Shown here in pieces: positions 11,532 through 44,532 of a stretch of DNA of 64,000 nucleotides; within the stretch, counting starts at the first letter, position 1, and each line of letters starts with the position of its first letter. The notes under the pieces were generated by a model that had not been told where the DNA came from, searched no databases, and saw nothing but the letters and a program-made list of their open reading frames with translations. This stretch comes from Rhodospirillaceae bacterium. Lineage in GTDB: Bacteria > Pseudomonadota > Alphaproteobacteria > Rhodospirillales > Rhodospirillaceae. The stretch spans positions 40,641 through 104,640 of the forward strand of contig SCTM01000041.1 in NCBI GenBank assembly GCA_004297485.1, given 5' to 3'. The position numbers and the translations under genes were made by a program.

Positions 11532-13043
11532 ATGACCGTCAGGACATCCCAAAAGCGTCTCATCTCCGGCGTTGCCGTTGCTGCGGTGACGACATTCCTC
11601 GCCGGCTGCGCCGTTGGTCCTAATTTTCACCGGCCGGCGGCACCTGCGGTCACGGGATACACCGTCGAGGCCTTGCCGGACAAAGTGGTGGCGGGGGACA
11701 TGCCTGGTGGACCGGCTCAGCAGTTGGCTATGGGCGGAGATGTCACCGGCCGGTGGTGGACGCTGTTCGGGTCCGCCCCGCTTGATGCCTTGGTGGAACA
11801 GGCGTTGTCCGCCAACCCGGATCTGGCCGCGGCCAAGGCCGCCCTGCGCCAATCCCGGGAAAAGCTATACGCGGGCGAAGGCGCTTTCTTTCCCAACGTC
11901 GACGGCAATTTTTCATCGACGCGCCAGAAGATCAATGCCACCGCATTCGGCGGCGCCGCGTTAAGCCCGCCGCCCTTTACCCTGCACAATGCATCGGTGA
12001 GCGTAACCTATGCCCTGGACGTCTTCGGCGGAACGCGACGGACAGTGGAATCCCTGAGAGCTCAGGCCGAAGCCGTACGCTTCCAGACCGAAGCGGCTTA
12101 CCTGACCCTGACGGCCAATGTCGTCACCGCCGCGATTCAGGAAGCCGCAATCAAGAGCGCGGTCGCGGCGACCCAGGAGATTGTCGCCGGTGACCGCCAG
12201 CAGCTCGATATCGCGCGCCGGCAGGAATCCGTGGGCGGAATATCCAAAGCCGCATTTCTGGCGGAGACGGCACAGGTGGCGGCCGTAGAAGCCACCTTGC
12301 CGCCTTTGGAAAAGCAACTCGCCCAGCAGCGCAACGCCCTGGCAGCGCTTGCGGGACGGTTTCCAACCGAAGGTCCGTCAGCGAGTTTCGACCTTGCCGT
12401 GCTTACCATGCCCGAGACTTTGCCCGTCAGTCTGCCTTCGCGCCTGGTCGAACAACGTCCCGATATTCGTGCGGCGGAGGCGACGCTCCATGCCGCCAGC
12501 GCCGAAATCGGCGTCGCCACCGCCAACATGCTGCCGCAGATCAACCTGAGCGGCACCTATGGGAGCAGCACCGGCCAAATCGGCGACTTATTCGCCGCCG
12601 GCACGGGTATTTGGAGCCTTGGCGCCCAGGCGGTGCAACCGATCTTCCACGGTGGCCAGCTCCTTCATGAGCGACGGGCGGCCGTGGCCGCCTACGATCA
12701 GGCAGCAGCACAGTATCGGGCGACGGTGCTCGCGGCCTTTCAGAACGTGGCCGACACATTGCGGGCATTGCAATCGGACGCGGACACTCTGAAGGCGCAG
12801 AGCGTCGCCGAACGCGCGGCCGCCGACAGCCTTGAGATCGCGAAACAACAATATGCCGCGGGCGCCATCAGCACCTTGCTTCTGCTTGACGCTCAACGGA
12901 CATACCAACAAGCGCGCATTGCTCTGGTGACGGCGCAGGCAAGCCGCTACGCCGACACAGTTGCCTTGTTCGTCGCCCTGGGCGGCGGCTGGTGGAATCG
13001 CCCGGACGACGTCACCGACCATCACGGCGGCAGCCAGCAATGA
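11532..13043 (+). CDS. Efflux system outer membrane lipoprotein, NodT/TolC family
   Basis: Lipobox-like 'FLAGCAVGPNF'; 'VEQRPDIRAAEATLHAASAEIGVATANMLPQINLSG'. Confidence 0.9.
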   Translation: MTVRTSQKRLISGVAVAAVTTFLAGCAVGPNFHRPAAPAVTGYTVEALPDKVVAGDMPGGPAQQLAMGGDVTGRWWTLFGSAPLDALVEQALSANPDLAAAKAALRQSREKLYAGEGAFFPNVDGNFSSTRQKINATAFGGAALSPPPFTLHNASVSVTYALDVFGGTRRTVESLRAQAEAVRFQTEAAYLTLTANVVTAAIQEAAIKSAVAATQEIVAGDRQQLDIARRQESVGGISKAAFLAETAQVAAVEATLPPLEKQLAQQRNALAALAGRFPTEGPSASFDLAVLTMPETLPVSLPSRLVEQRPDIRAAEATLHAASAEIGVATANMLPQINLSGTYGSSTGQIGDLFAAGTGIWSLGAQAVQPIFHGGQLLHERRAAVAAYDQAAAQYRATVLAAFQNVADTLRALQSDADTLKAQSVAERAAADSLEIAKQQYAAGAISTLLLLDAQRTYQQARIALVTAQASRYADTVALFVALGGGWWNRPDDVTDHHGGSQQ

Positions 13044-13125
13044 CGGGCAAGACGAACGACACGTGGACCGATCCGCTCTCGCGCCATGGGCGGCCTATGG
13101 ATGTAAAGAAACGGGATATATCGTG

Positions 13126-14259
13126 ATGACTAAGCGCATGATCAACATGTTGATCGTTGTCGGCCTGATTCTGGCAGCCGTATTTGGATACAAGATGTTC
13201 GGCAGCTATATGATGGGGCGCTATATGAAGGCGCTTGCATCAGCGCCGCAGGTGGTCGCGACGATGCACGCGACCACCCAGGAGTGGCAGCCGCAGATCA
13301 GGGCCGTCGGGTCTTTGCGCGCCGTCCAGGGCGCCGATCTTTCCGTCGAAACATCCGGCATTGTCGAGAGCATCGATTTTACGTCCGGCGAAGACATCAA
13401 GGCAGGCGCCGAACTTCTGCACCTTCGGGCTGCCGACGACATCGCCAAGCTTCACGCCCTTGAGGCAAGCGCCCACCTCGCCGCCCTCACCTATGACCGC
13501 GACAAGAAGCAGTTCGCGGCCCAGGCCGTGAGTCAGGCAACCCTGGATTTCGACGCCGCCACTCTCGACAGTGCCAATGCGGCGGTGACGGAACAACAGG
13601 CCGTGATCGAGAAGAAAGTCGTGCGTGCACCGTTCGCGGGCCGGCTGGGTATTCGCGCCGTCGACGTCGGTCAGTATGTCGGCGCCGGAACAGCGGTTGT
13701 CTCGCTGCAGACCGTGGATCCGATCTATCTGGATTTTCCCCTGCCACAACAGGAAGTAAGCCGTCTCAAGACCGGACTCACGGTGACGGTGCAGACGGAT
13801 GCTTATCCGGATCGCCGGTTCACCGGAGAAGTCTCGGCGCTCAATTCCCGCGTCGATACGGCCAGCCGCAATGTGCAGGTTCGCGCCACGATAAAAAATC
13901 CCAATCACGCGCTGCTGCCGGGCATGTACGGGACCGTGGCTATCGATAGCGGCGTTGTAAACCGCTACATCACGCTGCCGCAGACGGCGGTGACCTATAA
14001 TCCCTATGGCAACATCGTCTACGTCGTTGAACACCAGGGAAATGACGAAAAGGGTCAACCGCGCCTCATCGCGCAGCAGGCGTTCGTCACACTTGGGCCG
14101 GCGCGCGGCGACCAAGTTGCTATCGTGAATGGCCTCAAAGAGGGGGACGAGGTCATTGTCCTTGGCCAGCTTAAACTGCGCAATGGCTCGCCAATCATGA
14201 TCAATAATGCCGTCATGCCGAGCAATGACGCCGCGCCGGCACTGCCGTCCGATCAGTAG
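13126..14259 (+). CDS. RND efflux periplasmic adaptor (MFP/HlyD-like)
   Basis: 'VRAPFAGRLGIRAVDVGQYVGAGTAVVSLQTVDPIYLDFPLPQQ'; between OMF and RND genes. Confidence 0.92.
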   Translation: MTKRMINMLIVVGLILAAVFGYKMFGSYMMGRYMKALASAPQVVATMHATTQEWQPQIRAVGSLRAVQGADLSVETSGIVESIDFTSGEDIKAGAELLHLRAADDIAKLHALEASAHLAALTYDRDKKQFAAQAVSQATLDFDAATLDSANAAVTEQQAVIEKKVVRAPFAGRLGIRAVDVGQYVGAGTAVVSLQTVDPIYLDFPLPQQEVSRLKTGLTVTVQTDAYPDRRFTGEVSALNSRVDTASRNVQVRATIKNPNHALLPGMYGTVAIDSGVVNRYITLPQTAVTYNPYGNIVYVVEHQGNDEKGQPRLIAQQAFVTLGPARGDQVAIVNGLKEGDEVIVLGQLKLRNGSPIMINNAVMPSNDAAPALPSDQ

Positions 14260-14279
14260 ATGAACGAAAGAGCCTTGCG

Positions 14280-17200
14280 ATGAATTTTACGGACATTTTC
14301 ATCCGGCGCCCGGTATTGGCGACGGTCGTCAGTCTGATGATCCTGGTCCTTGGCCTGCGCGCGGCCGGTTCCCTATCGGTGTCGCAATTTCCGCATACAG
14401 AGAACGCCGTCATCTCTGTTTCAACCACCTACTACGGCGCCGACGCCGACGTGGTCGCAAGCTATATCACCACGCCATTGGAAGCCGTCATCGCCCAAGC
14501 CTCGGGTATTGATTACCTCACATCGTCGAGCAAGAGCGGTTCCAGCACCATCACCGCCTATCTGCGGCTGAACTACGACGGCGACAAGGCGATGACTGAA
14601 ATCAGCGCCAAGGTCAACGCGGTGCTGAACCAGCTGCCGCCGGAATCCCAGCGCCCGATTCTATCGCTCCAGATGGGCCAGGTAACCCCGGCGATGTTCA
14701 TCGGCCTCAACAGCGACGTTTTGCCGTCGACCCAGCTGGCCGATTATGCCCTCCGCGTCGTCGTGCCCAGGCTGCAGGCAATCGAAGGCGTGCAGGAAGT
14801 GCAATTTGGCGGCGGCAAGGGGTTTGCCATGCGCGCCTGGCTGGACCCAACGAAGCTGGCCGCGTTGAACCTTACGGCATCGGATGTTTACAGCGCGCTT
14901 GCCGCCAACAACTATATTGCCGGACTGGGCACCACCCGGGGGCAAATGGTGCAGGTCAATCTGGCCGCCTCCACGAATCTGCATTCGGTCGAGGACTTCC
15001 GGAACCTCGTGCTCAAGACGGTCGGTGGAACGATCATACGCCTCCAGGACGTCGCCACCGTTGATCTCGGCACGGAGGATTACGACTCCATTGGGGCGTT
15101 CGACGGCAAGCAAGCCATCTTGCTCGCCGTGCAGGTCGCGCCCTCGGCGAATCTGTTCGATGTCATGAGGCGCGCGCACAAGGTTATCCCCGATCTCAAA
15201 CTGCAGCTGCCGCAGGGCGTGCACCTGACCGTGGCCTATGATTCCTCGGATTTTATCAGCGGCGCCATCAAGGAAGTCGTCCGAACTCTCATTGAGGCCC
15301 TGTTGATTGTCACTCTGGTGGTGTTCGCCTTCCTCGGATCGCCGCGGTCGGCGCTGATACCAGCCATCGCCATTCCCCTATCCCTCGTCGGCACGTTGAC
15401 CATCATGCTGGCGCTCGGCTTTTCCCTCAACCTTCTGACGCTGTTGGCGCTGGTGCTTTCGATCGGCCTGGTCGTCGACGATGCGATCATCGTGGTCGAA
15501 AACATAAACCGACACATGGAAGAAGGGATGGCACGGACCAAGGCATCTCTATTGGCGGCACGCGAACTTGCCGGGCCGATCGTGGCAATGACCGTGGTCC
15601 TGATCGCCGTATATGTCCCGATCGCTTTTCAGGGAGGCCTGACCGGTGCTTTGTTCACCGAATTCGCATTCACCCTGGTCGGCGCGATTACCGTTTCCGC
15701 CATTGTCGCGCTGACATTGTCGCCGATGTTGTCCTCACGTCTTCTGCGGAGTCACGTTAAGGATGGCGGCACCTGGGAGGACGGTCTGGTGCGGTTCATC
15801 GACCGCCGGTTCGATAGTCTGCATCGCTACTATGCTTTTGCCCTGCACGAGAGCTTGAACTCGGTGGCGGTCATCGTTGTTTTTGCCTTGACCGTTCTGG
15901 TCAGCATTTATTTCCTCTACACCACGGCCCGCGATGAATTGGCGCCGCAGGAGGACGGCGGCTTTATGGCCGCTCTTATGATCGCGCCGCCCAGTTCGAC
16001 GCTTCAGCAACGTGAACTGTTCATGGAGCAGGCCGCCGGAGTCTTTTCAAGCGTCCCGGAGGTCATCCATTCGATCCATATGGACACACCGGATCGCGCC
16101 CTCATCGGCATTGCGCTCGCCCCCTGGGACAAACGCAAGCGCACCATGAGCGAGGTGCAGGGGCCGCTGCAGAAGGATTTGAACCAGATCGCCGGATTCC
16201 GTGTTGCGATCTTTCAGCCGCCGCCGTTGCCGGTCGGCTTCGGCCTGCCTGTACAATTCGTCATCGGCTCGACGCAGCCTTTCGACCGCATGAACGACGT
16301 CGGGCAGGCGTTCCTTGAGCAAACCAGCAAAATGGGCATGTTCAGCTTCTTGAGTTCCGACCTCAAGATCGACCTGCTGCAGACGACTGTTGAGATCGAT
16401 CGCGACAAAGCCGCCCAACTTGGCCTCAACATGACGGATGTGGGCCGGGCAATGACCACCATGTTGGGTGGAGGATATGTCAATTATTTCGCCTTCGACG
16501 GGCGGGCCTACAAAGTGATTCCGCAAGTCCAGCAGAATTATCGGCTCAATCCTCAACAGCTGCTCGACTATCATCTTCGCATCGCCGACGGTTCGGTCGT
16601 TCCCTTGTCGACCATTGCACACCTCAGCACCAAGACGATTCCCGAATCCCTGCCCCACTTTCAACAGCTCAACAGCGTCACAATCCAAGGTGTGCTGGCG
16701 CCGGGGGTGGCAATGGGTGATGCGCTGGATGCCCTCAGGGCACTTGCCGCGCGGACACTGCCCGCCGGCTATTCGGTCGACTACGGCGGCACATCGCGTC
16801 AATACATGCAGGAGTCGAGCGGATTCCTGCTGACGTTCGTGTTCGCGCTGATCATCATCTTCCTGTCGCTGGCCGCCCTGTTCGAGAGCTTCCGCGACCC
16901 ACTGATCATTCTTGTCTCGGTACCCATGTCCATCGCCGGTGCATTAGTGTTTATTTCCACAGGCATCGGCGGAACCACCCTTAACATTTACACCGAGGTC
17001 GGCCTCGTCACCTTGATGGGACTGATCAGTAAGCACGGCATCCTGATCGTCGAATTCGCCAATGCGGAACAACATCGCGGCAAACCCAAGCGGGAAGCTG
17101 TGGAGCTGGCCGCCGCCACGCGGTTGCGTCCCATATTGATGACGACCGCAGCCATGGTCCTGGGCGTGATGCCGCTGCTTCTGGCCAGCGGCCCCGGCGC

Positions 17201-17363
17201 CGGGGCGCGCTTCAACCTGGGCCTCGTCATTGCCAGCGGAATATCCATCGGCACGCTGTTCACGCTGTTCGTAGTACCGGCGGCATACTTGATATTGGCC
17301 GCGGACCACACGAAAGACGGCGTTGCGTCTGATTTGTCTCAGGAATCTGCCGTAGAATATTGA
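14280..17363 (+). CDS. RND family efflux transporter permease (AcrB/MexB-like)
   Basis: 1027 aa; 'MNFTDIFIRRPVLATVVSLMILVLGLRA', 'VLSIGLVVDDAIIVVENINRHMEEG', 'EVGLVTLMGLISKHGILIVEFAN'. Confidence 0.95.
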   Translation: MNFTDIFIRRPVLATVVSLMILVLGLRAAGSLSVSQFPHTENAVISVSTTYYGADADVVASYITTPLEAVIAQASGIDYLTSSSKSGSSTITAYLRLNYDGDKAMTEISAKVNAVLNQLPPESQRPILSLQMGQVTPAMFIGLNSDVLPSTQLADYALRVVVPRLQAIEGVQEVQFGGGKGFAMRAWLDPTKLAALNLTASDVYSALAANNYIAGLGTTRGQMVQVNLAASTNLHSVEDFRNLVLKTVGGTIIRLQDVATVDLGTEDYDSIGAFDGKQAILLAVQVAPSANLFDVMRRAHKVIPDLKLQLPQGVHLTVAYDSSDFISGAIKEVVRTLIEALLIVTLVVFAFLGSPRSALIPAIAIPLSLVGTLTIMLALGFSLNLLTLLALVLSIGLVVDDAIIVVENINRHMEEGMARTKASLLAARELAGPIVAMTVVLIAVYVPIAFQGGLTGALFTEFAFTLVGAITVSAIVALTLSPMLSSRLLRSHVKDGGTWEDGLVRFIDRRFDSLHRYYAFALHESLNSVAVIVVFALTVLVSIYFLYTTARDELAPQEDGGFMAALMIAPPSSTLQQRELFMEQAAGVFSSVPEVIHSIHMDTPDRALIGIALAPWDKRKRTMSEVQGPLQKDLNQIAGFRVAIFQPPPLPVGFGLPVQFVIGSTQPFDRMNDVGQAFLEQTSKMGMFSFLSSDLKIDLLQTTVEIDRDKAAQLGLNMTDVGRAMTTMLGGGYVNYFAFDGRAYKVIPQVQQNYRLNPQQLLDYHLRIADGSVVPLSTIAHLSTKTIPESLPHFQQLNSVTIQGVLAPGVAMGDALDALRALAARTLPAGYSVDYGGTSRQYMQESSGFLLTFVFALIIIFLSLAALFESFRDPLIILVSVPMSIAGALVFISTGIGGTTLNIYTEVGLVTLMGLISKHGILIVEFANAEQHRGKPKREAVELAAATRLRPILMTTAAMVLGVMPLLLASGPGAGARFNLGLVIASGISIGTLFTLFVVPAAYLILAADHTKDGVASDLSQESAVEY

Positions 17364-18490: not shown

Positions 18491-19732
18491 TCACGAAGGT
18501 ACGGCGTTCTGAACAGTAAGAGTGTCTGCGGTGGGGACGGGACTTTCCGTTTCCGCCAATTCGACTTTATTGCGACCGCCGGCCTTGGCCCGGTACAGCG
18601 CCTCATCGGCGCGCGCATAGAGCGCCGGGTGATCCATCTCGCCGGGCGCCGAAATCGCCAAACCCGCCGAAACCGTCGCCCGAAGATCGCCGCCTGGAAC
18701 CGGAATCCGGCTCTCCGCGAACGCGTGACGAATACGTTCCGCCGCCTGGCGGAACGCGGCCGCGTTGGTGTCTGCAATCACCAGAACGAACTCTTCGCCA
18801 CCCACACGAGCAAAAAAATCGCTGTCGCGGAGAACCGAACGGGCGACCCCGGCAAAATGACGCAGCATGATATCACCGGTGGTATGGCCATGGTTGTCGT
18901 TGATGAGCTTGAAGTGGTCGATGTCCATCAACCCCATGCCAAAACGAATGCGGTCACGGCGAACGCGCGGCGCGAGACGGCGCATTTCCTCGTCGAAGGC
19001 ACGGCGATTCGGCAGGCCCGTCAACACGTCCACCGTGGCTGTCTGCCGTAATCGAGCGGTCACGCGATTGGTGGCCAGTAGGATATAGCCATAGGCGCGG
19101 AGGATGACGATAACGGCCGCATAGATGAAAACGGCGATTTGATTGAGTTGATCGGAGCTGGCCAGGCTTTCGGTGTCGAAGTTCAACGACGGCAGCTTTC
19201 CCTTAACGAGTAGCGCCACGATGCGCAAACCCAGGATCGGAAGGCCGAACGCGTAGACAAAGGCGAGGACGATCACGCCCGCAAATCCCTCCTGCCGCCC
19301 CAGAGCCACCAGGGCAGGTGCCTGCAACAACAGGGAAATCGAGAGCGCCGTTGAAAATACGATTGTGCGGCTGACGAATTGGGGATCGACCCACGTAAAA
19401 TAGGACGCGCCGAGGATCATCCAGATAAACACCAGAATGGCGCCGCGCGCGGGCACGGGTCTGATGGCAAACCGGCAAAGGCCTAACAGCACAAGAAGCT
19501 GGCCGCCCACGATGAACATATCGGCTAATAGGATCGATACGCCGTCAGGAAGCTCGCCTTCCAACGCGCGGAAGACCACCCCTATGATCGAGAGGGCGGT
19601 GCCGGCGGGCCACCACCCCACCCCCTCCATATCCTTGTGGATGCGCCAGTTGATCGTCAGCGCGATCATCCCGGCGATCATGGGCGGCAGCATGATGGCG
19701 GCGATGGATTTGTTCGAGAGCATGCCGGGCAA
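18491..19732 (-). CDS. Membrane-anchored diguanylate cyclase (GGDEF)
   Basis: N-terminal TM segments; 'DVLTGLPNRRAFDEEM', 'MDIDHFKLINDNHGHTTGD', 'ARVGGEEFVLVI'. Confidence 0.92.
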   Translation of the reverse strand: MPGMLSNKSIAAIMLPPMIAGMIALTINWRIHKDMEGVGWWPAGTALSIIGVVFRALEGELPDGVSILLADMFIVGGQLLVLLGLCRFAIRPVPARGAILVFIWMILGASYFTWVDPQFVSRTIVFSTALSISLLLQAPALVALGRQEGFAGVIVLAFVYAFGLPILGLRIVALLVKGKLPSLNFDTESLASSDQLNQIAVFIYAAVIVILRAYGYILLATNRVTARLRQTATVDVLTGLPNRRAFDEEMRRLAPRVRRDRIRFGMGLMDIDHFKLINDNHGHTTGDIMLRHFAGVARSVLRDSDFFARVGGEEFVLVIADTNAAAFRQAAERIRHAFAESRIPVPGGDLRATVSAGLAISAPGEMDHPALYARADEALYRAKAGGRNKVELAETESPVPTADTLTVQNAVPS

Positions 19733-22532: not shown

Positions 22533-25500
22533 TTACTTCCCAATGTCGGCGCGCTGCTGAGCCGTCATGGTGTTGAGCTGGCCGAACGTAAAGGCGTTGG
22601 CCTGGGTTGAGTTGAGCCCCATAAGCGCCGTGTCGGTAAATCCGGTGATTTGCGCCGTGATAAACGCCGGAATCTGCTGCGTCGTCAAACCCGGCATCTG
22701 GCTGACCAGGAAGTTGGCCGCTTCGGTATTGGTGAGTGCGGCCAATTGAACCGCCGTCAGGCCGCCGATTTCCGTGACAGTGAGGGCCTGGAATTGCGGT
22801 ATGGCCAACTTGGCGATGATCGTGGTGCTGAGGCTCGCGACCTGGGTCGATGTCAGCGCGGATATTTCGGTCGTCGTCAGGCCGGTGAGTTGACCCGACG
22901 ATAGGACCGCGAGGTCGGTGGTGCTGAATCCGACGATTTGTGTTGTGGCCAATCCGCCGAGTTGGACGGAACTCAATACGCTGAAGGCCGTGCTGTTCAG
23001 CCCGCTCAGTTCGGTTGATGAAAGGCCGGAGAGCGCCGTCGCCGTTAATTTCGCGATCTCGGAAGAGCTGATGCTGCCGAACTGGGTGGATGAGAGCACA
23101 CCCAGTTGCGTGGACGTGAGGCCGCTGAGCTGACCCGACGTCAGGAACGCCAGATCGGTGGTGCTGAAGCCCCCCACCTGCGTGGTAGTCAGTCCCGTCA
23201 GTTGCGCCGAGGTCAACGCACCGAATGCGGTCGTGCTTAGGCCGCCGAACTGCGTCGCGGTCAGACCGCTGAGCTGGCCGGTCGTCAGAGCGGCGATATT
23301 GGTGGTGTTGATGGCGCTGAGCTGCGTCGTGGCGAGCCCCCCGAGCTGGGTCGACGTCAGCGCCGCGGCCTGTATGGCAGACAAGTCCGCAATGTTGGTA
23401 CTGCTGAGACTGATCACCTGGGTGGTGGTCAACACGGCGATTTGCGTGTCGGCGAGACCGGTGAGTTGGGACGAGGTCATCTCGCCCAGATCGCTCGTGC
23501 TCAAGCCCACCGCCTGCGTGGTGGTCAATCCGCCCAGCTGCGTGGACGTCAAGCCCGTGAACGCCACGGTATCGATCGTGCCGATCTGGCCAGCACTTAG
23601 GCCACTCAGCTGAGCAGCGGACAGGTTGCCGATATTGGTGGTGGTCAGGGCGTTGAACTGGGTCGCACCCAACGCGTCGATTTCCGTGGACGTCAATCCA
23701 CTCAGCTGCGAGGTGGTCAAGCCGCCGATATTGACGGTCGTGATCGCCACCACCTGCGTATTGGCCAAACCACCCAACTGGGTGGAGGTCAGCGCACCGA
23801 AAGTTGCGGCATTGAGGCCAGCCACCTGTGTCGCGGCAAAGCCCGCGAGCTGGGTCGACGTCAAACCGGCGACCACGCTGGTGGCGAAGGAATTCAGTTG
23901 GGTCGTAGCGAGACCGCCAAACTGGGCTGCGGTAAGGCCGCTCACCTGCACGGACGTCAGGCTGGGGATAATCGTGGTATCGAATACGCTCAACTGTGTG
24001 GCGGCCAAAACGCCCAGTTGCGTTGACGTCAGGCCGTTGAGCTGTGACGTGGTCAGAATATTGAGATCGGTGGTGCTGAGACCCAGCGCCTGGGTCGTCG
24101 TCAGCCCGCCCAACTGCGTAGAGCTCAGGCCAGCAAAGCCAACGACACCAAGGCCGGTGAGCTGGGCTGGCGTCACACCGCTAAGCTGGGCTGCCGTCAG
24201 ATTGGCGATGTTGGCGGCCGGGACGGCATTCAATTGCGTCGTCGTCAAGCCGCCGAGCTGGGTCGAGGTCAAACCGCTGAGCTGCGATGTTGTCATCGCC
24301 GTTAGGTCAGTGGTGCTCAACCCGCCCACTTGGGTCGCGGCCAGACCGCCGAGCTGAGTCGAAGTCAAGGCACCGAAGGCCGTCGTGTTCAGGCCACTGA
24401 TCTGCGCCGCTGTTAATCCGCTGAGCTGGGTCGACGTGAGCCCGGCGATATTTGCCGTAGCGATGGCATTCAACAGCGTCGTGCTGACAACACCCATCTG
24501 CGTGGACGTCAGCCCGCTAAGCTGGACGCTTGACAGGCTGGCGACGTCGGTCGTGCCGATCGCGTTCAGCTGAGTCGCGGCCAAGACGCCGAGCTGGGTC
24601 GAGGTCACGCCACTCAGTTGGCCGGTCGTCATGACGGCGATGTCGGCAACGCTCAGGCCCTTGGCCTGGGTCGTCGACAGCCCGCCAAGCTGGGTGGAAG
24701 ACAAAGCGCCGAACGCGGTCGTGTTGAGGCCACCGATCTGCGTCGAGCTCAAACCGGACAGCTGCGTGGAGGTCAGGCTGCCCATATCCGTGGTGCTCAG
24801 GTTATTAAGCTGGGTCGTCGTCAAGACCCCGACTTGCGTAGATGTGATGCCGCTCAACTGGCCAGTGGTCATGGCGGCCAGATCGGTCGTACTGAAACCC
24901 TTGGTCTGGGTGGTCGTCAGGCCGCCAAGCTGGATCGACGTGAGGGCACCGAACGCGGTCGTGTTCAACGCGCCAACCTGCGCCGACGTCAAACCGCCAA
25001 GTTGGGTCGACGTGAGGGCCGCGATGTCGGTGGTATTGAGGGCATTGAGCTGGGTGGTGTTTACCGTTCCGAGTTGCGTCGGCGTTAGGCCGCTCGCCTG
25101 CGTGGTCGTCAGATTGGCGAAATTGGTAGTGCCGAGCGCGTTAAGCTGAACCGCCGTCAGTCCGCCCAATTGAGCCGATGTAATGCCGCTCAGCTGCGAT
25201 GTGGTCATTGCACCGAGGTCGGTCGTGCTAAAGCCCGTCGCCTGGGTCGTGGTCAGGCCACCGAGTTGCGTGGAGGACAAGGCGCCGAAGGCGGTCGTAT
25301 TGAGACCGCCGATTTGGGTCGCTGTGAGTCCGCCAAGTTGGAGCGCCGTGAGTCCGCCGATGTTACCGGTTGAGAAGGCATTGAGCTGCGTGGAGGTGAG
25401 CACGCCGAGCTGGCCTGAGACAATGCCGCTCAGCTGGGACGTTGTGATTGCGGCGATATCGGTCGTATTCAGTCCCTTGATCTGAGTCGTCGAAAGGCCG

Positions 25501-28500
25501 GTCAGTTGGGTCGATGTCACGGCACCGAAGGCGGTGGTATTGAGACCGCCGATTTGGATCGATGTCAGATTGTTCAACTGGGTGTCGGTCAGAGCCGCGA
25601 TATTCGTCGTGCTAAGGGCATTGAGCTGGGTTGTGTTCACCGTCCCAAGCTGCGCCGGTGTTAATCCGCCGGCTTGAGTGGTGGTCAGGTTGGCAACATC
25701 AGTGGTGCTGAGGGCATTGAGCTGCGCGGCGGTCATCACGCCGAGTTCCGTAGAGGTCAATCCGCTCAATTGGGATGTGGTCAATACGGCCAGATCAGTG
25801 GTGCTGAGGCCCTTGACCTGCGCCACCGATAATCCGCCGAGCTGGGTTGAGGTCAAGGCCAGAAAGGCCGTGGTATTAATCCCACCGACCTGGGCAGCAC
25901 TTAGTCCCGTCAGCTGTGCCGACGAGAGCGAGGCCACGTTCGTGGTGCTCAGTGCGTTGAATTGGGTCGCGGCCAGCACACCAAGTTCGGCCGAAGTCAG
26001 GCCGCTGAGTTGTCCTGTAGTCATAGCGGCGAAGTCGGTGGTGCTAATTCCGGCCACCTGAGCGTTTGTCAGCCCGTTCAACTGGAGGGAAGTCAGCGCG
26101 CCGAAGGCCGTCGTATTCAATCCGCCCATCTGCGCCGCGGACAGGCCGGCGATTTGCGTCGTGTCCAAGAACGCGAGGTCTGTGGTTGCGAGGTTGTTCA
26201 GCTGTGTGGATGAGAGGCCACCCAGTTGCGCCGGCGACATGCCGCTGACCTGAGTCGTGGTGAGGTTGGCGAGGGCGGTTGTGGTCAGCACCGCGAGTTG
26301 AGTCAACGCCAACACGCCGACCTGGCTTGAGTTCAGCCCGCTCAGCTGAGATGTCGTTATGATCGCAAGGTCGGCCGTGCTGAGGCCTCTGATCTGGGTT
26401 GTCGTAAATCCGGCAAGTTGTGTGGAAGTCAACGCCGCGAAGACAGTGGTGCTCGAGCCGCCCAGTTGCGCCCCTGTCAACCCGCTAAGTTGGACGGAAG
26501 TCAGGTTGGCGAGCGATGTGGACGTCAGTGCGTTCACCTGCGTCGTCGTCATGGCTGCGAGTTCAGTGGACGTAATGCCGCTCAGTTGCGATGTGGTGAG
26601 AGCCGCGATGTCGGTGGTGTTGAGCCCCGCGACTTGAGCCACCGTTAACCCGCCGAGTTGGGTCGAACTGACTGCGCCGAAAGCGGTGGTGTTGAACCCA
26701 CCGATCTGTGTTGAAGTGAGCCCGGCAATCTGAGTCGCCGTCAGACCGGTCAGGTCAACGGTAGCGAATGCATTGAGATGTGTCGTGTTCAGACCGCCGA
26801 TTTGAGCTGCCGTCAGGCCGCTCACCTGAGTGGTGGAGAGGCTGCCGAAAGTAGTGGTGGTCAGGGTGTTCAATACAGCAGCCGACAATGCCCCGACCTG
26901 GGTAGAACTCAGCCCGCTCGCCTGGCTGGTCGTCAGAATGGCGAAATCGGTCGTGCTGAAACTCTTGAGTTGCGTTGTAGTCAGGCCTGCGAGCTGTGTT
27001 GATGTGAGCGCCAGAAACTTCGTCGTGCTCAACCCCGCCAGTTGAGTGGCAGTTAGCCCAGCTAGCTGAGCTGACGAAAAACCGGCAATGTTTGTATTGG
27101 TCAGCGCGTTCAACTGGGTTATCGCCAGCGCCGCGATTTGGGTCGTGAGCAGGCCGCTCAGCTGCGAACTCGTCAAGGCCGCCAGTTCAGTGGTCGTCAG
27201 GCCCTTCAATTGAACGGCCGTCAGGCCGCCGAGCTGAGTCGACGTCAGCGCACCGAAGGCTGTGACGTTGATTCCGCCCAACTGCGTTGCGGACAGACCC
27301 GACAGTTGCGTGTTCGTCAACCCAGCGATGTTCACCGTCGCCAGAGCATTGAATTGCGTCGTGGTCAGTTTTCCGATCTCGCCCGCGGTGAGTCCGGTTA
27401 CCTGGACGGCCGATAGATTCGCAAGGATCGTCGTGCTGAGGGCCGGAACTTGGAGCGCGGTCAGCCCGCCGATGAGTGTTGAGCTGAGGCCACTGAGCTG
27501 CGATGTAGTGAGCGCGGCGATATCGGTGGTGCCGATCCCACTGAACTGAGACACGACAAGACCGCCCAATTGGCTCGATGTGAACGCATCGAATTTTGCG
27601 GCGCTGATATTGCCGATCTTTGTTCCATTCATAAAATCCAGCTGCGCGCCGGTGATATTCGCGAGATCGGTCACGGGCATGGCATTGAGCTGAGTCGTCG
27701 TGAGAGCCGCAAGCTGCGTTCCCGTGAAGCCGCTCAGCTGCGTCGTCGTCAAAGCGCCCATGCCCGTGGTGGTGGAGAGCGCCGTCATCTGCGTCGTCGT
27801 CAACGCGGCAAGTGCGGTCGACGTCAAAGCACCGAAGGCCGTAGCATTGAGGCCGGCGATTTGAGTCGTGGTCAGGCCGCGTAACTGGGTCGCGGCCAGT
27901 CCGGCGAGATTTGCGGTGGCGATAGCGTTTACCTGTGTCGTCGCCAATAGCGCAATTTTCGCAATGGGAAGGCCGGCAAGCTGTCCCGCCGTCAAACTCC
28001 CCATGTCGATTGCTGTCAGGGCCTTCAATTGCGTGGTTACCAGCGCGGCGATCTGGTTCGACGTCAGACCGCTCAGCTGCCCGGTGGTCATGGCGGTGAT
28101 ATTCGTGGTGCTTATGGCCGCAAGCTGGGTACCGGCCAAACCGGTCAGCTGCGTCGACGTCAGGGCACCGAAAGATGCGGCGCTTAAGCCGGTGACTTGT
28201 GTCGCGGTGAGTCCATCAATCTGGGTGTTGGCGAGATTGCCGATCGTACCCGCGGCCAGGGCATTGATCTGGGTGACCGCTAAACCGCCGACTTGTGCCG
28301 CGGTTAGGCCGGTGACCTGCACCGAGGACAACACAGCGAGCTCGGCCGCGCTGAGGCCTTTGATCTGCACACCCGAGAGACCGCCGAGTTGCCCCGCCGT
28401 GAAACCGCTAAAGTTGGAGGCGGTAAACTCGCCGATCTCGGTCGCCGTCAGCCCAGTCAACTGCGTCGCCACAAGCCCGGTCACCTGGGTGCTTGTCAGC

Positions 28501-28625
28501 GCCGCAACCTGAGTAGCGAGCAGATAACTCAGCTCGGTTGGCGTCCAACCGGCGAGCTGGGCCGGAGTCAAAGCCGCGATTTGGGCCTGCGTAAGAGCGT
28601 GAACGCTTGTCGCCGATAGAGTCAT
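22533..28625 (-). CDS. Giant octapeptide-repeat protein (2030 aa, 252 octads L-[TS]-x-x-Q-[LIV]-x-[GA]); function unknown
   Basis: Whole ORF is octad repeat in one register: 10 aa cap + 252 octads (one 9-mer) + 3 aa tail = 2030; no Cys seen, few charged residues, no obvious signal peptide or TM. Confidence 0.9.
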   Translation of the reverse strand: MTLSATSVHALTQAQIAALTPAQLAGWTPTELSYLLATQVAALTSTQVTGLVATQLTGLTATEIGEFTASNFSGFTAGQLGGLSGVQIKGLSAAELAVLSSVQVTGLTAAQVGGLAVTQINALAAGTIGNLANTQIDGLTATQVTGLSAASFGALTSTQLTGLAGTQLAAISTTNITAMTTGQLSGLTSNQIAALVTTQLKALTAIDMGSLTAGQLAGLPIAKIALLATTQVNAIATANLAGLAATQLRGLTTTQIAGLNATAFGALTSTALAALTTTQMTALSTTTGMGALTTTQLSGFTGTQLAALTTTQLNAMPVTDLANITGAQLDFMNGTKIGNISAAKFDAFTSSQLGGLVVSQFSGIGTTDIAALTTSQLSGLSSTLIGGLTALQVPALSTTILANLSAVQVTGLTAGEIGKLTTTQFNALATVNIAGLTNTQLSGLSATQLGGINVTAFGALTSTQLGGLTAVQLKGLTTTELAALTSSQLSGLLTTQIAALAITQLNALTNTNIAGFSSAQLAGLTATQLAGLSTTKFLALTSTQLAGLTTTQLKSFSTTDFAILTTSQASGLSSTQVGALSAAVLNTLTTTTFGSLSTTQVSGLTAAQIGGLNTTHLNAFATVDLTGLTATQIAGLTSTQIGGFNTTAFGAVSSTQLGGLTVAQVAGLNTTDIAALTTSQLSGITSTELAAMTTTQVNALTSTSLANLTSVQLSGLTGAQLGGSSTTVFAALTSTQLAGFTTTQIRGLSTADLAIITTSQLSGLNSSQVGVLALTQLAVLTTTALANLTTTQVSGMSPAQLGGLSSTQLNNLATTDLAFLDTTQIAGLSAAQMGGLNTTAFGALTSLQLNGLTNAQVAGISTTDFAAMTTGQLSGLTSAELGVLAATQFNALSTTNVASLSSAQLTGLSAAQVGGINTTAFLALTSTQLGGLSVAQVKGLSTTDLAVLTTSQLSGLTSTELGVMTAAQLNALSTTDVANLTTTQAGGLTPAQLGTVNTTQLNALSTTNIAALTDTQLNNLTSIQIGGLNTTAFGAVTSTQLTGLSTTQIKGLNTTDIAAITTSQLSGIVSGQLGVLTSTQLNAFSTGNIGGLTALQLGGLTATQIGGLNTTAFGALSSTQLGGLTTTQATGFSTTDLGAMTTSQLSGITSAQLGGLTAVQLNALGTTNFANLTTTQASGLTPTQLGTVNTTQLNALNTTDIAALTSTQLGGLTSAQVGALNTTAFGALTSIQLGGLTTTQTKGFSTTDLAAMTTGQLSGITSTQVGVLTTTQLNNLSTTDMGSLTSTQLSGLSSTQIGGLNTTAFGALSSTQLGGLSTTQAKGLSVADIAVMTTGQLSGVTSTQLGVLAATQLNAIGTTDVASLSSVQLSGLTSTQMGVVSTTLLNAIATANIAGLTSTQLSGLTAAQISGLNTTAFGALTSTQLGGLAATQVGGLSTTDLTAMTTSQLSGLTSTQLGGLTTTQLNAVPAANIANLTAAQLSGVTPAQLTGLGVVGFAGLSSTQLGGLTTTQALGLSTTDLNILTTSQLNGLTSTQLGVLAATQLSVFDTTIIPSLTSVQVSGLTAAQFGGLATTQLNSFATSVVAGLTSTQLAGFAATQVAGLNAATFGALTSTQLGGLANTQVVAITTVNIGGLTTSQLSGLTSTEIDALGATQFNALTTTNIGNLSAAQLSGLSAGQIGTIDTVAFTGLTSTQLGGLTTTQAVGLSTSDLGEMTSSQLTGLADTQIAVLTTTQVISLSSTNIADLSAIQAAALTSTQLGGLATTQLSAINTTNIAALTTGQLSGLTATQFGGLSTTAFGALTSAQLTGLTTTQVGGFSTTDLAFLTSGQLSGLTSTQLGVLSSTQFGSISSSEIAKLTATALSGLSSTELSGLNSTAFSVLSSVQLGGLATTQIVGFSTTDLAVLSSGQLTGLTTTEISALTSTQVASLSTTIIAKLAIPQFQALTVTEIGGLTAVQLAALTNTEAANFLVSQMPGLTTQQIPAFITAQITGFTDTALMGLNSTQANAFTFGQLNTMTAQQRADIGK
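22545..28595 (-). repeat. 252 tandem 24-bp (octapeptide) coding units
   Basis: Hand-parsed translation; span is 2017 codons = 252x8+1. Confidence 0.9.
22665..28427 (-). repeat. Ten tandem 576-bp (24-octad, 192-aa) higher-order modules
   Basis: Phe-marker octads (e.g. LNTTAFGA) at units 8,18,32,42,56,66,80,90,104,114,128,138,152,162,176,186,200,210,224,234, strictly alternating +10/+14 with 2-3 degenerate markers. Predicted module boundaries 28427/27851/27272/26696/26120/25544/24968/24392/23816/23240/22665; module 2 has 3 extra bp. Confidence 0.85.
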
Positions 28626-29129
28626 GGCCGATCACTCCACCCCGGCTCATGCAGGGCAGGCTTGGGACATGAATGCGAAGACATGCGGACATACGAACGT
28701 CTCTGCCGCGGACAGCAGAGACCGCCGGCACATCGCTCAATCTCTGTTCGCGAGACCTTGAACACCCAAACCTCGCCCCATGGCTCAGTCACTAACGTCT
28801 TGCGCGTATCCACAGTTGCCGAAATCCGAGGGCCCCCATCATCATTGGAAGACACAGCGGCCCCGCACACGTAACAAGTGTATCAAATTAAGTATATTAA
28901 ACGCGATAGTGGTGACGGCTATTATGACCCTCGCATGGTTCTTTTTAAGGACGCGTTAATATCCGTTTACACGCTGAGCGCGGTACGAGACCAAAGCCCG
29001 GCCATGTAAAATAATACAATTATTTCAATGTATTAGATTGATCTTACCGCCGCCCTGCAACGCAGGCGGTGCGCGCCAGGGGCTGCGATCAGGCGAATCG
29101 GCCGACGGCCGCCATCGCTGTCCGGCGGC

Positions 29130-30629
29130 CTAAGCCAGGACGTTCAACTGCCCGACCGACATCACCCCGAGCTGGGTGGATGTAAAGCCCGAAACCTGAA
29201 GCGTATTGAGTGCGGCCAGCGCCGCCGGGGCGAGCTCGGGAATCTGGGTGACGGTGAAAGCGCCAATCTCCGACGTCGTCAGGGCGACCATCTGGCTGCC
29301 GACCAGCCCTGAAACGACGGTGGTCGTGAGAACGGCAATATCCGTCGTCGTCAGAGCTGCCAACTGGCTGGCGGTAAACCAGATCGCCGTACTCAGAACG
29401 GCGATCTGTGTCGGGGCCAATGCGGCGATGACCGAGGTCGAGAGCAGACTGGCCACTTGGGTGTCGGTCAACTCAGCGAGCACGGTCGCCCTGAACCCGC
29501 TCAGCTGCGTTGCCGACAGTACAGACAATTCCGTGGTGGTCAGGCTTTTGACCTGATTGGCGGTAAGCGCTGCCAATGCCTTCGACGTCAGGGCGCTGAA
29601 ATTGGTGGTGCTCAGGTCGCTGATGTCGGTGACCGACAATCCGGCGATCTGTGTCGAGGTTAACACCGCCATGGCGCTCGTGCTCAGAGCGTTCACCTGT
29701 GTCGTGGTCAAAACCTTCATTACGTTCTTCACCAGGCCGCTGGCCTGGGTCGATGTCATGACGGCCAGGTCGTTGGCACTGAAGCCCTGCGCTTGTGTCG
29801 TCGTGAGATTGTGAATCTGGGTCGACGTAAGTCCGCTGAACGCCGTCGTACTTAATGCGCCGATCTGTGTCGACGTCAGGCCGACAAACTGTCCGCTGGA
29901 AAGTGCCCCGATGTCGGCCGACGAAAGCGCGTTCAGTTGATCCGAGGAGAGTGCAGGTGCCTGGTGCACATTTATCCCGCTCGCCTGCGTGGTCGTGAGT
30001 GCCGCCAGTTCCGTCGTGGTAATCGCCTGAATCTGCAAAGAACCGAGCGCTGAAATCTCTGTGGACGTCAGTCCATTCAATTGCGATGTCGTGAGACTCG
30101 TAATCTGAACCACGCTCAGACCCTTGACCTGGGTCGTCGTCAAGCCGCCGATTTGGGTGGCGGTCAGCGCGCCAAAGGTTGTGGTGTTAAGGCGCCCAAT
30201 CTGGGTCGATGTGAGTCCGTCCACCTGCCCGACCGTCAGCGCGGCAATAAGGGTGGTGGTGAAAGCGTTGAGCTGGGCGGCATCGAGAGACGCCAGTTCG
30301 CTGGTGGTCAGACCGGCGCGCTGTGTCGTGGTGAGAAGCGCGAGTTCGGTCGTCGTGAGTCCGTCGAACTGCACGGGAAAGAGATTCTTGATCTGCGTCG
30401 AGGTCAGGCCCGAAAAGCCCGAGGTCGAAAGGGCCCCGAGCTGTGTTGACGTCAGCCCGCGCACTTGGCTCGTAGCCAAGCTTCCCACTTGCGTCGCGGT
30501 CAACACGGCAACCTGCCCCGGCAGCAGGTAACTCAGATTAAGGCTGGTCAACGCCGCAAGCTGCGTGGTGGTCAGCCCGGCAATATAAGCCGTGGTGTAG
30601 GCCTGGACGGTCGTTCGGCTGAGATCCAT
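29130..30629 (-). CDS. Short octapeptide-repeat paralog (499 aa, about 61 octads); function unknown
   Basis: Same octad motif, same 10-aa N-cap (MDLSRTTVQA vs MTLSATSVHA), Phe markers at units 8,18,32,42 in the same register as the giant paralog. Confidence 0.88.
   Translation of the reverse strand: MDLSRTTVQAYTTAYIAGLTTTQLAALTSLNLSYLLPGQVAVLTATQVGSLATSQVRGLTSTQLGALSTSGFSGLTSTQIKNLFPVQFDGLTTTELALLTTTQRAGLTTSELASLDAAQLNAFTTTLIAALTVGQVDGLTSTQIGRLNTTTFGALTATQIGGLTTTQVKGLSVVQITSLTTSQLNGLTSTEISALGSLQIQAITTTELAALTTTQASGINVHQAPALSSDQLNALSSADIGALSSGQFVGLTSTQIGALSTTAFSGLTSTQIHNLTTTQAQGFSANDLAVMTSTQASGLVKNVMKVLTTTQVNALSTSAMAVLTSTQIAGLSVTDISDLSTTNFSALTSKALAALTANQVKSLTTTELSVLSATQLSGFRATVLAELTDTQVASLLSTSVIAALAPTQIAVLSTAIWFTASQLAALTTTDIAVLTTTVVSGLVGSQMVALTTSEIGAFTVTQIPELAPAALAALNTLQVSGFTSTQLGVMSVGQLNVLA
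29139..30599 (-). repeat. Tandem 24-bp octapeptide coding units of the short paralog (two irregular units)
   Basis: 487 codons = 59 octads + one 9-mer (LLSTSVIAA) + one 6-mer (LSTAIW). Confidence 0.85.
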
Positions 30630-42888: not shown

Positions 42889-44532
42889 TTAGCTGAACAG
42901 CCGCCGGTCCAGCTTCTTGATGAAGCCCCACGGATCGGGGTCGGGCTTGCCGAACAAAAAGCCTTGGACGTATTCAACGCCGCAATCGCGCACGAACTCC
43001 AAGGACTCCTTGGAGTCGACCATTTCAGCAATGGTCTCGACCTTGAGCGTCTTACACAGGGTCGTCAGAGCGCGCAGAAACGCGCGGCCCTTCGGCGCGG
43101 CTTGTGCGTTTTTCACGGCGCTGCCGTCCAGTTTCACGACGTCGACTTCCAGCGTGCTGAGATATTGGAAACTGGCGGCGCCGGCGCCGAAGTCGTCCAG
43201 ACAGACGTGAAAGCCGCGCCCGCGCAAACTTTGGACGAAAGTGTTGGCCTGATTGAGGTCGGCGACGCGGGCTGATTCCGTGATCTCGAACAGCAAGAAG
43301 TCCTTGAGCCAGGTATCGGCATCCAGCAGCGTATGCAGTTCCTTGATATAGGGCTGATTGTCCACCGAGTTACCCGAAATATTCACGGCGATGGACACGC
43401 GATCGGCGCGGTTTTTGCGCAGCCACTCGACGCATTTCTTTGCCATGGCGATATCGAATTCGGCGATCAGGCCGGTTTCCTCGGCGAAGGTGATCTGCTT
43501 GTAGGGCGATTCCTCGAACTTTCCATTGAAACGCACCAGCGCTTCGTAGTGGTGCACCGCGCCGGTACGCACGTGGAGAATTGGATGAAAGGCAATCTGG
43601 AAGTCATTGCCGCCGACGATATTGCGGAACTTGTTCAGGGACTGCATGGCCTCCTTGACCAGGCCATCCATGTTCTGGGCGATGTCCTTGACATTGAACT
43701 TGTCGCCCACCTGTTCCTTGAAATGATTGATGGTGTAGACGAGGCCCTTGGTCAGATCCTCTTCGTTGACCGCCGTCATGTCGACGGCGACCGTTCCGGC
43801 TTGAACCTCGATGCCCTTGCCGGTGCGGTCAAAGGCCTTGGTTGCTTCGGACAGAGTTTGTTCGAGGGCGGTGACGTCCATGCCCTTGGCGTGGACCAAG
43901 CCGAATTTGCCGTCGCCGATTTCACCGGCGCTGTTGCCGTCGATTGAATTCGCCCGCAGGGTTGTCCCGACGGTATTGCGGAAGACCTGTTGGTCATCCG
44001 GCGATAGTTTTTCAAAGAACGCGTCGAACCCGGGCAAATTGACCAGGGTCATTTCCGCCGGAGCACCGGAGGCCGCGCTGGACCGCAATTGCTCCGCCGC
44101 GCGCGCGGAGAAGGAGTCGCTGGTGAGTAGACCGGACTCCTTGTCGCGTTCGACGCCGTCTTCTTCTTCCCCAACTTCGTTCAGGGGCACCGTGGCACGC
44201 AAGGCCAGGAAGTGGTGGTCCTTGAGATCGGGCAGGACATAGCCGGCGAACTTCACCGGATGGTTTTTGCCATCCGGGCTGACCATATGAATTTCCACGT
44301 CGTGGATGCGCGCACGTTTCGTGGTCATGGCCAGGAGCTGGTCCACCAGCACCCGGTCCTTGAGGTCTACCAGTTCGTGAAAGTCGCGCCCGATCAAAGT
44401 TTCGGGCTTCGCCCCCACCATGGCGCGGGTCGCACCGGTTGCGAACAGGATTCGCCGCGACTGATCAAGCTCGATCAGCGCGTCGGCCCAGCAGAACGCG
44501 AATGCAACAAATTTGTCTCTGGCAGAACTCAT
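42889..44532 (-). CDS. PAS - degenerate GGDEF-like - EAL domain protein
   Basis: 'HYEALVRFNGKF', 'CLDDFGAGAASFQYLSTLEVDVVKLDG'; central 'GDGKF' in place of GG[DE]EF. Confidence 0.8.
   Translation of the reverse strand: MSSARDKFVAFAFCWADALIELDQSRRILFATGATRAMVGAKPETLIGRDFHELVDLKDRVLVDQLLAMTTKRARIHDVEIHMVSPDGKNHPVKFAGYVLPDLKDHHFLALRATVPLNEVGEEEDGVERDKESGLLTSDSFSARAAEQLRSSAASGAPAEMTLVNLPGFDAFFEKLSPDDQQVFRNTVGTTLRANSIDGNSAGEIGDGKFGLVHAKGMDVTALEQTLSEATKAFDRTGKGIEVQAGTVAVDMTAVNEEDLTKGLVYTINHFKEQVGDKFNVKDIAQNMDGLVKEAMQSLNKFRNIVGGNDFQIAFHPILHVRTGAVHHYEALVRFNGKFEESPYKQITFAEETGLIAEFDIAMAKKCVEWLRKNRADRVSIAVNISGNSVDNQPYIKELHTLLDADTWLKDFLLFEITESARVADLNQANTFVQSLRGRGFHVCLDDFGAGAASFQYLSTLEVDVVKLDGSAVKNAQAAPKGRAFLRALTTLCKTLKVETIAEMVDSKESLEFVRDCGVEYVQGFLFGKPDPDPWGFIKKLDRRLFS

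Follow-up and report, generated by a model that had tools for sequence, protein, structure and literature searches.

Giant octapeptide-repeat proteins of a Rhodospirillaceae bacterium: a predicted α-helical superhelix whose relatives are linked to a GT41 glycosyltransferase and type I secretion

Introduction

Two adjacent open reading frames of a Rhodospirillaceae bacterium, P0002 (499 aa) and P0001 (2030 aa), consist almost wholly of the octad L-[TS]-x-x-Q-[LIV]-x-[GA]. They lie in the window analysed here, a stretch of 64,000 nucleotides of contig SCTM01000041.1. What are such giant repeat proteins for? An initial annotation, made from the letters of this stretch, had described them as being of unknown function and had suggested a filament, spacer or surface-structural protein system. 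We have followed the repeat through its family, its predicted fold and the gene neighbourhoods of its relatives. Our favoured reading, which we rate at slightly better than even as a whole explanation, is that the two products are leaderless, type-I-secreted surface fibres glycosylated on Thr and Ser.

Results

Two octad-repeat proteins under protein-level constraint

Both frames lie on the minus strand, 504 bp apart (Table 1), as the initial annotation had it, and its hand parse of the longer protein (10 aa, 252 units and 3 aa, including the one irregular unit) was reproduced exactly. At lags divisible by 8, P0001 has a self-identity of 0.27–0.52, against an average of 0.09 at the others. P0002 shows register breaks, with 13 residues falling outside octads in the parse and a visible shift near residue 400. 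The composition also agrees with that annotation: cysteine is absent from both proteins and charged residues are few (K+R = 19 and D+E = 51 in the 2030 aa of P0001). Thr and Ser make up 30% of residues, and ∼66–69% at each of octad positions 3 and 4. Since the highest 19-residue hydropathy is 1.5–1.7 and neither protein has a lipobox or LPxTG motif, no transmembrane segment or signal peptide is obvious in the pair, again as had been noted; the first octad starts at residue 3 or 11, and the N-terminus does not look strongly hydrophobic. The RTX nonapeptide GGxGxD does not occur in either protein.

Table 1. Features of the octad-repeat locus (positions within the window).
Feature	Position	Strand	Basis or remark
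Octad-repeat protein 1 (P0002, 499 aa)	29130..30629	−	ORF and PF20080; first in transcription order
N-terminal cap, protein 1, MDLSRTTVQAYTTAYIAGLTTTQLAALTSLNLSYL	30525..30629	−	comparison of N-termini; pattern ..TTxQIAgFTsTELGYL.. common to paralogues
Conserved C-terminus, protein 1, LNTLQVSGFTSTQLGVMSVGQLNVLA	29133..29210	−	comparison of C-termini; candidate secretion signal or cap
Spacer between ORFs (504 bp), with A+T-rich stretch	28626..29129	−	sequence
Octad-repeat protein 2 (P0001, 2030 aa)	22533..28625	−	ORF, PF20080, octad parse, AF2
N-terminal cap, protein 2, MTLSATSVHALTQAQIAALTPAQLAGWTPTELSY	28524..28625	−	comparison of N-termini
Only nine-residue unit in P0001, LSTTTGMGA (residues 283–291)	27753..27779	−	parse
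Conserved C-terminus, protein 2, LNSTQANAFTFGQLNTMTAQQRADIGK	22536..22616	−	comparison of C-termini; candidate secretion signal or cap

The G+C content of P0002 at the three codon positions is 0.53, 0.52 and 0.76. When 24-octad units were compared pairwise, identity by codon position was 0.65, 0.79 and 0.39, and 62% of identical residues were encoded by differing codons. This pattern demonstrates that the octad ORFs are kept as protein, their reading frame being under protein-level constraint. A promoter-like match in the spacer (28948–28921, minus strand), from a consensus scan alone that found 4 matches in the region against 1.9 expected, raises the possibility of a separate promoter for protein 2. 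Scanning the window for Rfam families and tRNAs gave no hits.

The ALTTAQ family and its names

Pfam entry PF20080, the ‘ALTTAQ repeat’ (ALTTAQ_rpt), matched P0001 with 642 bits (E = 1.9e-198, 72 stretches) and P0002 with 182 bits (E = 1.7e-54, 18 stretches), both far above the curated gathering cut-off of 26.4 bits. Judged by these matches, P0001 and P0002 are paralogues within this octad family; many further octad paralogues are encoded elsewhere in the same genome. The Pfam repeat is identical to that of the window pair and the entry is a sequence description, in which we found no statement on secretion or glycosylation context. The literature searched yielded neither a paper on the family nor a published function for it, so that ‘unknown function’ stands in that respect, but the repeat is catalogued and a structure of the same octad design has been solved (see below). 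Relatives are annotated variously as ‘heme utilization protein’, ‘large exoprotein involved in heme utilization or adhesion’, ‘ICE nucleation protein’ and ‘hypothetical protein’, bearing out the inconsistent naming mentioned tentatively in the initial annotation; the heme utilization and ice nucleation names are misleading. The pair had no match among 50,697 phage records, and a phage origin was set aside. Methylobacterium META1_2412 (15,831 residues) is a different protein, for which its own paper gives RTX and haemagglutinin domains.

A helical octad and a superhelical period

The AlphaFold modelling that had been suggested was run with AF2 on residues 844–1131 of P0001 (36 octads). The model has a pLDDT of 94.5, with a helix in every octad and no strands; a second region (pLDDT 88) likewise gave one helix per octad. 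In these models the octad is one short α helix with a tight turn, the helix probably being capped by Thr/Ser at position 2 and Gln at position 5. With no strands in the model, we rejected leucine-rich-repeat membership, for which PF23952 (LRR_EndoS) had scored 69 bits on P0001, and read that score as a composition cross-match; CAAP1 membership and plant and animal LRR matches in the PDB were dropped on the same ground.

The alignment used was in phase; one of mixed register was set aside because MAFFT opened gaps. The sequence also has a second periodicity, of 24 octads and of 3.43 octads, 24 octads being seven turns. The 3.43-octad spectral peak was present at positions 2, 3, 5 and 8 with a power of 17–48, as compared with maxima of 10–14 in shuffled sequences. 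Super-repeats among paralogues are mostly 7, 10, 14, 17, 24, 34, 41 or 48 octads long, close to whole turns of 3.43 octads. The period is thus a predicted signature of a superhelix, its geometry read from the sequence alone and independently of the AF2 model.

Among solved chains, HeliScrew4 (PDB 9zem) matched the octads in sequence with E values of 6e-12 and 1e-10. Its octads, LTPEQIAA and LSPDQFAA among them, are in register with those of the window pair, but the chain is 120 aa long and charged, with mostly Pro and Glu/Asp at positions 3–4; judging by its name, it is apparently a designed protein. It was not seen among the Foldseek matches of the octad model, and the likeness thus stands at the level of sequence. 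The best Foldseek matches in the PDB were mesothelin and stereocilin (E = 1e-4 to 8e-4), for which TM-scores of 0.26–0.38 indicate at most a distant likeness of stacked short helices. These eukaryotic proteins are predicted to form ARM-type superhelices (PMC2628672).

Conserved ends

Both proteins carry the N- and C-terminal signatures of their paralogues (Table 1). The C-terminal motif A[FL][TS]..Q..M[TS]..Q was terminal in 44 of 96 proteins, as against 118 internal occurrences in 19,932 octads. In the AF2 model the C-terminus of P0001 consists of folded octads until near its end, and the motif could be a folding cap instead of an export signal. These ends, the 24- and 3.43-octad periods and the paralogues in the same genome are absent from the initial annotation; the gene context described below lies outside the window and was therefore invisible from it.

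Linkage to a GT41 glycosyltransferase

The octad family has a TPR-GT41 clade of its own, made up of O-GlcNAc-transferase-type enzymes. An octad ORF was present at 60 of 80 loci of this clade, in 53 cases within 200 bp and on the same strand. None of 20 comparison GT41 loci passed the octad-ORF test, although two of the 20 (L149, with an octad-like ORF, and L157, with type I secretion genes) proved to be members of the octad-linked clade. At the genome level, the clade was found in 39 of 48 genomes with PF20080 and in 1 of 250 without it (p = 6e-39), the remaining nine PF20080-positive genomes having no member at the score used. In the GT41 tree all octad-linked enzymes except a single unrelated second copy fall together in a group supported at 100/100. 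At most loci the GT41 gene directly follows the octad gene, often with overlapping frames, and it tracks octads also where type I secretion genes are not adjacent. Magnetococcales members of the clade are mostly without detectable octads. Other sugar genes (rfbABCD, epimerases, UDP-sugar decarboxylase) lie near some octad loci. That the genes adjoin is no proof of which protein serves as substrate for the GT41.

Linkage to type I secretion

Four loci (L038, L056, L057 and L058) have the gene order TPR-ABC-HlyD-octad-GT41, and at L059, L060 and L062 ABC-HlyD-octad runs up to the contig end. The same order was obtained for the window's own genome by joining contigs, of which C92 encodes ABC residues 1–136, C213 ABC residues 127–719 followed by HlyD and an octad gene, and C177 octad-octad-GT41-MTase. 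The HlyD scores above the curated cut-off of TIGR01843 (type_I_hlyD). The genetically tractable laboratory strain Cereibacter sphaeroides 2.4.1 has the corresponding set of annotated genes, namely OGT (WP_011836188.1), peptidase-domain ABC (WP_011836187.1), HlyD (WP_011836186.1) and octad (WP_011836189.1), and an annotated set occurs in Pseudoroseomonas as well. Type I secretion genes were nevertheless found at only 12 of the 80 GT41 loci, making this linkage weaker than that to GT41. The octad protein of locus L026 has an N-terminal non-repeat domain and, by eye, a Pro-rich hinge. Near the window pair neither type I secretion nor GT41 genes were found; the GT41 enzyme is encoded in another part of the genome. 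When two congeneric genomes were searched with the PPK2 gene that neighbours the pair, no orthologous neighbourhood came up.

Discussion

Our starting point is what was observed directly, namely the repeats, their two periods, a confident fold model, the conserved ends and the gene linkage of relatives. Because the operons of relatives include a type I pump and a sugar-adding enzyme, we infer export, glycosylation and a surface location for the octad proteins. With ∼3.43 octads (27.4 residues) to each turn, stacked octads would form one continuous superhelix, and the protein a long, thin rod. Before export, many exposed Thr and Ser residues would most likely be O-glycosylated in the cytoplasm by the operon's dedicated TPR-GT41. 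Export would most likely proceed through the HlyB/HlyD-type system encoded with the paralogues, with the conserved C-terminus as signal. The giant, glycosylated rod would then sit on the cell or around it as a coat, adhesin or biofilm fibre. Since the window pair is not beside such genes, its use of the operon machinery in trans can only be inferred. The surface-structural part of the initial suggestion is favoured by the two linkages in relatives, and a filament would fit the predicted continuous superhelix.

Would the rod need sugar at all? Thr/Ser at position 2 together with Gln at position 5 suits a helix capping box, which makes some of the Thr/Ser structural; a type-I-secreted rod could use these residues for capping and solubility and stay unglycosylated, the GT41 acting on another product or building a glycan, as the nearby rfbABCD, epimerase and decarboxylase genes would allow. 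We nonetheless consider this unlikely, given the position of the GT41 gene directly behind the octad gene, its association with octads even away from secretion genes, and the abundance of Thr/Ser at positions 3–4, where HeliScrew4 has mostly Pro and Glu/Asp. A cytoplasmic scaffold or filament that is never exported would account for the lack of a signal peptide, transmembrane segment, lipobox or LPxTG motif and of an adjoining secretion gene, but is quite unlikely: close relatives occupy type I secretion operons in several genomes and on annotated plasmids, the window pair shares its conserved C-terminus with them, and the N-terminal domain and hinge of the L026 protein look, by eye, like those of a surface protein.

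The orphan position of the pair, the register breaks in the 499-aa copy and promoter signals that are consensus matches alone would all suit silent or decaying duplicates of operon-encoded octad genes. We regard this as very unlikely: both frames are open over 6.1 and 1.5 kb and have a coding-type codon-position signal (GC3 0.75), protein-level constraint between repeats and intact terminal signatures. The regular spacing of Thr on a repeat rod, and the name ‘ICE nucleation protein’ given to the C. sphaeroides homologue, recall ice-binding or ice-nucleation proteins. Ice-nucleation repeats are held to be β-solenoids, however, and the octad model lacks strands; with no ice-nucleation family among Pfam matches up to E = 1, we give this idea hardly any credence.

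Glycosylated, secreted surface fibres thus remain our preferred reading, and the linkage gives a catalogued family a concrete candidate role with a probable enzyme and pump. More tentatively, and at somewhat under an even chance, we propose a new system in which the GT41 clade decorates hundreds of Thr/Ser on all-α octad superhelices of up to ∼4,600 residues and a HlyB/HlyD-type pump exports them as mucin-like, rigid glycoprotein fibres, across Alphaproteobacteria and scattered in Verrucomicrobia and Myxococcota. The literature searched does not describe such a probable role as sugar-coated surface fibres.

Giant T1SS adhesins of the LapA, SiiE and MpAFP type are likewise giant, leaderless repeat proteins linked to HlyB/HlyD-type genes, but are built with β domains, whereas the window pair has all-α octads without RTX motifs or Ig-like matches. 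For the enzyme, the closest parallel in role, sequence relation aside, is FlmG of Caulobacter, a cytoplasmic TPR-OGT that glycosylates flagellins ahead of export (PMC7591256). In both cases a TPR-glycosyltransferase in the cytoplasm would act on a substrate destined for export, although FlmG serves flagellin and the flagellar system, and the substrate and route here are presumed to be an octad giant and a type I pump. If true, this would be multi-site cytoplasmic O-glycosylation ahead of type I export, and bacteria would have in these fibres their counterpart to mucin-type coats, carried by an all-α scaffold of an unusual kind.

Two octad-repeat genes with a maintained reading frame

Both of the adjacent octad-repeat ORFs claimed in the initial annotation were recovered by ORF calling, with 504 bp between them. 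Its hand parse of the longer protein, P0001, was exact: 10 aa, 252 units and 3 aa, with a single nine-residue unit at 283-291. Self-identity was 0.27-0.52 at lags that are multiples of eight residues, compared with 0.09 at other lags, and the preferences at octad positions 1 to 8 were L, T/S, T/S/A, T, Q, L/I/F/V, G/A/S/N and G/A. Codon positions 1, 2 and 3 agreed at 65%, 79% and 39% between units 24 octads apart, indicating that protein rather than DNA identity was kept. The reading frame is maintained. Ordinary neighbours in the window (11532-17363, 18494-19732 and 42892-44532) are OEP/HlyD_D23/AcrB efflux genes, a GGDEF protein and an EAL protein.

Octad-repeat ORFs and flanking genes in the window
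Feature	Length	Position	Strand	Source
MipA gene, flank		21554	plus	neighbour survey
P0001, octad ORF	2030 aa	22533-28625	minus	ORF call
P0002, octad ORF	499 aa	29130-30629	minus	ORF call
PPK2 gene, flank		30749	plus	neighbour survey

P0001 and P0002 match the Pfam profile PF20080 (ALTTAQ repeat) with 642 bits and 182 bits, respectively (cut-off 26.4), so the repeat is already catalogued; the pair is a real feature built of it. The word ALTTAQ was not found in the literature searched, and homologues are named inconsistently (heme utilization protein, large exoprotein, ICE nucleation protein, hypothetical). Seven more contigs of the same genome carry octad ORFs. PF20080 is patchy, being present in 48 of 298 genomes of the host's order, and the longest octad ORFs, in finished genomes, reach ~4,600 aa. 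In drafts, contig breaks interrupt octad genes at many loci (e.g. L029, L030, L059, L060). Counts and lengths of family members taken from such assemblies are therefore probably too low. One octad protein of the same genome (L026:5846-9103) begins with a non-repeat region of ~375 residues and then has a Pro-rich hinge, PPSPPPPTP, which suggests a putative surface domain borne on an octad rod.

Predicted fold and conserved ends

P0001 residues 844-1131 were modelled with AlphaFold2, the alignment consisting of six in-phase segments taken from P0001 itself. In the resulting model (pLDDT 94.5, pTM 0.82) a helix spans roughly positions 3-7 of every octad and a short turn comes after it; strands are absent. 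The C-terminal 240 residues were modelled with the same pattern (pLDDT 88). Among solved sequences HeliScrew4 (9zem) is nearest, a chain of 120 residues made up of LTPEQIAA-type octads; Foldseek matched mesothelin superhelices at E ~1e-4, but with TM-scores of only 0.26-0.38. Taken by itself, the octad fold is very probably as modelled.

For spectral analysis of P0001, octads were taken as letters and substitutions scored by position. Positions 2, 3, 5 and 8 each peaked at 3.43 octads (power 17-48; shuffle maxima 10-14); position 7 peaked at a period of two octads. Some caution is needed, as the duplication of 24 octads by itself confines power to multiples of 1/24; among these, 7/24 dominated the summed spectrum (195 versus 75 for the next listed peak). 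Super-repeat lengths in paralogues, mostly 7, 10, 14, 17, 24, 34, 41 and 48 octads, are approximately whole multiples of 3.42 octads. From these periods we infer a putative superhelix with ~3.43 octads (27.4 residues) per turn.

The ends of octad proteins are conserved although the middle ranges from <400 to >3,000 residues. Of 96 octad proteins, 44 carry the motif A[FL][TS]..Q..M[TS]..Q within their final 32 residues; among 19,932 internal octads it occurs 118 times. The Cereibacter sphaeroides 2.4.1 protein ends in ASAFTATQLGAMSSAQIAALFL, matching the C-terminus that relatives share. Such conservation would fit a signal for type I secretion (T1SS; ABC + HlyD) or a folding cap, and is compatible with both.

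Linkage to a GT41 glycosyltransferase

When the GT41 of the window's own genome, a TPR-containing O-GlcNAc-transferase-type glycosyltransferase, was used as query, scores fell into a group at ≥480 bits and a remainder at ≤395. The group was present in 39 of 48 PF20080-positive and 1 of 250 negative genomes, counting one truncated member (Fisher p=6e-39, kinship ignored); for the corresponding HlyD group the counts were 14 of 48 and 1 of 250, respectively. In a scan of named genomes, a few of them relatives already included in the genome-level count, 60 of 80 GT41 loci had an octad ORF (same strand in 55, within 200 bp in 53), the two genes commonly overlapping or standing a few bases apart. 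Several of the remaining 20 start at contig ends or have octad ORFs slightly below threshold. T1SS genes were also present at 12 of the 80. No octad ORF above threshold was found at 20 loci of other GT41 genes. Hosts include Rhodospirillales, Hyphomicrobiales, Caulobacteraceae and others, as well as Verrucomicrobia and a Myxococcales bin.

Octad-linked GT41s grouped in the tree at 100/100, as two sub-clades, except for a second GT41 copy at a single locus. Two of the 20 control loci were placed in the second sub-clade; one of them has an octad-like ORF and the other a T1SS. This sub-clade (L172:1240-3072, L170:10758-12530, L141, L054), sister to the main one, also adjoins octad or T1SS genes, and some loci have both enzymes. 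Magnetococcales loci L075, L109, L120, L139 and L144 have clade members without detectable octads, some inside very long multi-domain ORFs.

Operons around relatives

At locus L038, genes for a TPR protein, an ABC transporter, HlyD, an octad giant, TPR-GT41 and a methyltransferase follow one another on one strand. The order recurs as far as GT41 in L056, L057 and L058, and its first part in L059, L060 and L062, which end at the contig or locus end. In the window's own genome these genes are spread over three contigs: C92 encodes the TPR protein together with ABC residues 1-136; C213 covers ABC residues 127-719 and holds HlyD as well as the first part of an octad gene; and C177 carries the end of an octad gene plus a second such gene, GT41 and a methyltransferase. 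Joined, these would give an L038-type gene set. With 269 bits, the L038 HlyD scores above the curated TIGR01843 cut-off (208.65 bits); the operon ABC protein is closest to TIGR01846 (HlyB), under its cut-off, and its N-domain lacks cysteine, as do HlyB-type C39-like domains.

On plasmid pA of C. sphaeroides 2.4.1, an octad gene encoding 1,561 aa is divergently oriented to genes for O-linked acetylglucosamine transferase, a peptidase-domain ABC transporter, HlyD and methyltransferase. A dTDP-rhamnose operon (L170:196-3538) lies near this cluster, reminiscent of rhamnose-operon biofilm plasmids. On Pseudoroseomonas cervicalis pL11-A, octads occur with ABC, HlyD, UDP-glucuronate decarboxylase, OGT, TPR and two methyltransferase genes.

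Further genes were observed, some of them at such loci. About nine tandem homologues of the operon TPR protein (33-38% identity) at G000:C245:10976-25133 are possibly an array of TPR-type glycosyltransferases. In a congeneric genome (L045:4419-6056) a radical SAM-like gene, its Pfam score just below cut-off, immediately follows two octad genes. In another lineage (L046-L053, L065), octad giants of 4.4-4.6 thousand aa pair with GT41 near epimerase-like genes and two others, one glycosyltransferase-like (400 aa) and one of the B12-type radical SAM kind (448 aa); these accessory genes may extend or modify the glycan.

Discussion

GT41 is probably the cognate enzyme of the octad family, and export by T1SS is likely, if slightly less so. 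The octad protein would be synthesised in the cytoplasm, TPR-GT41 would modify its exposed Thr/Ser, and it would leave the cell as a long glycosylated rod through the ABC-HlyD pump and an outer-membrane channel; we lean only a little towards this whole chain. Because its termini and composition are common to operon-encoded relatives, the window pair presumably uses this machinery in trans.

FlmG provides a precedent for TPR-guided O-glycosylation in the cytoplasm preceding export (PMC7591256). The secretion-glycosylation context of the octad family is apparently undescribed so far. Octad proteins would not be categorically new, belonging with giant type-I-secreted surface proteins that undergo cytoplasmic glycosylation.
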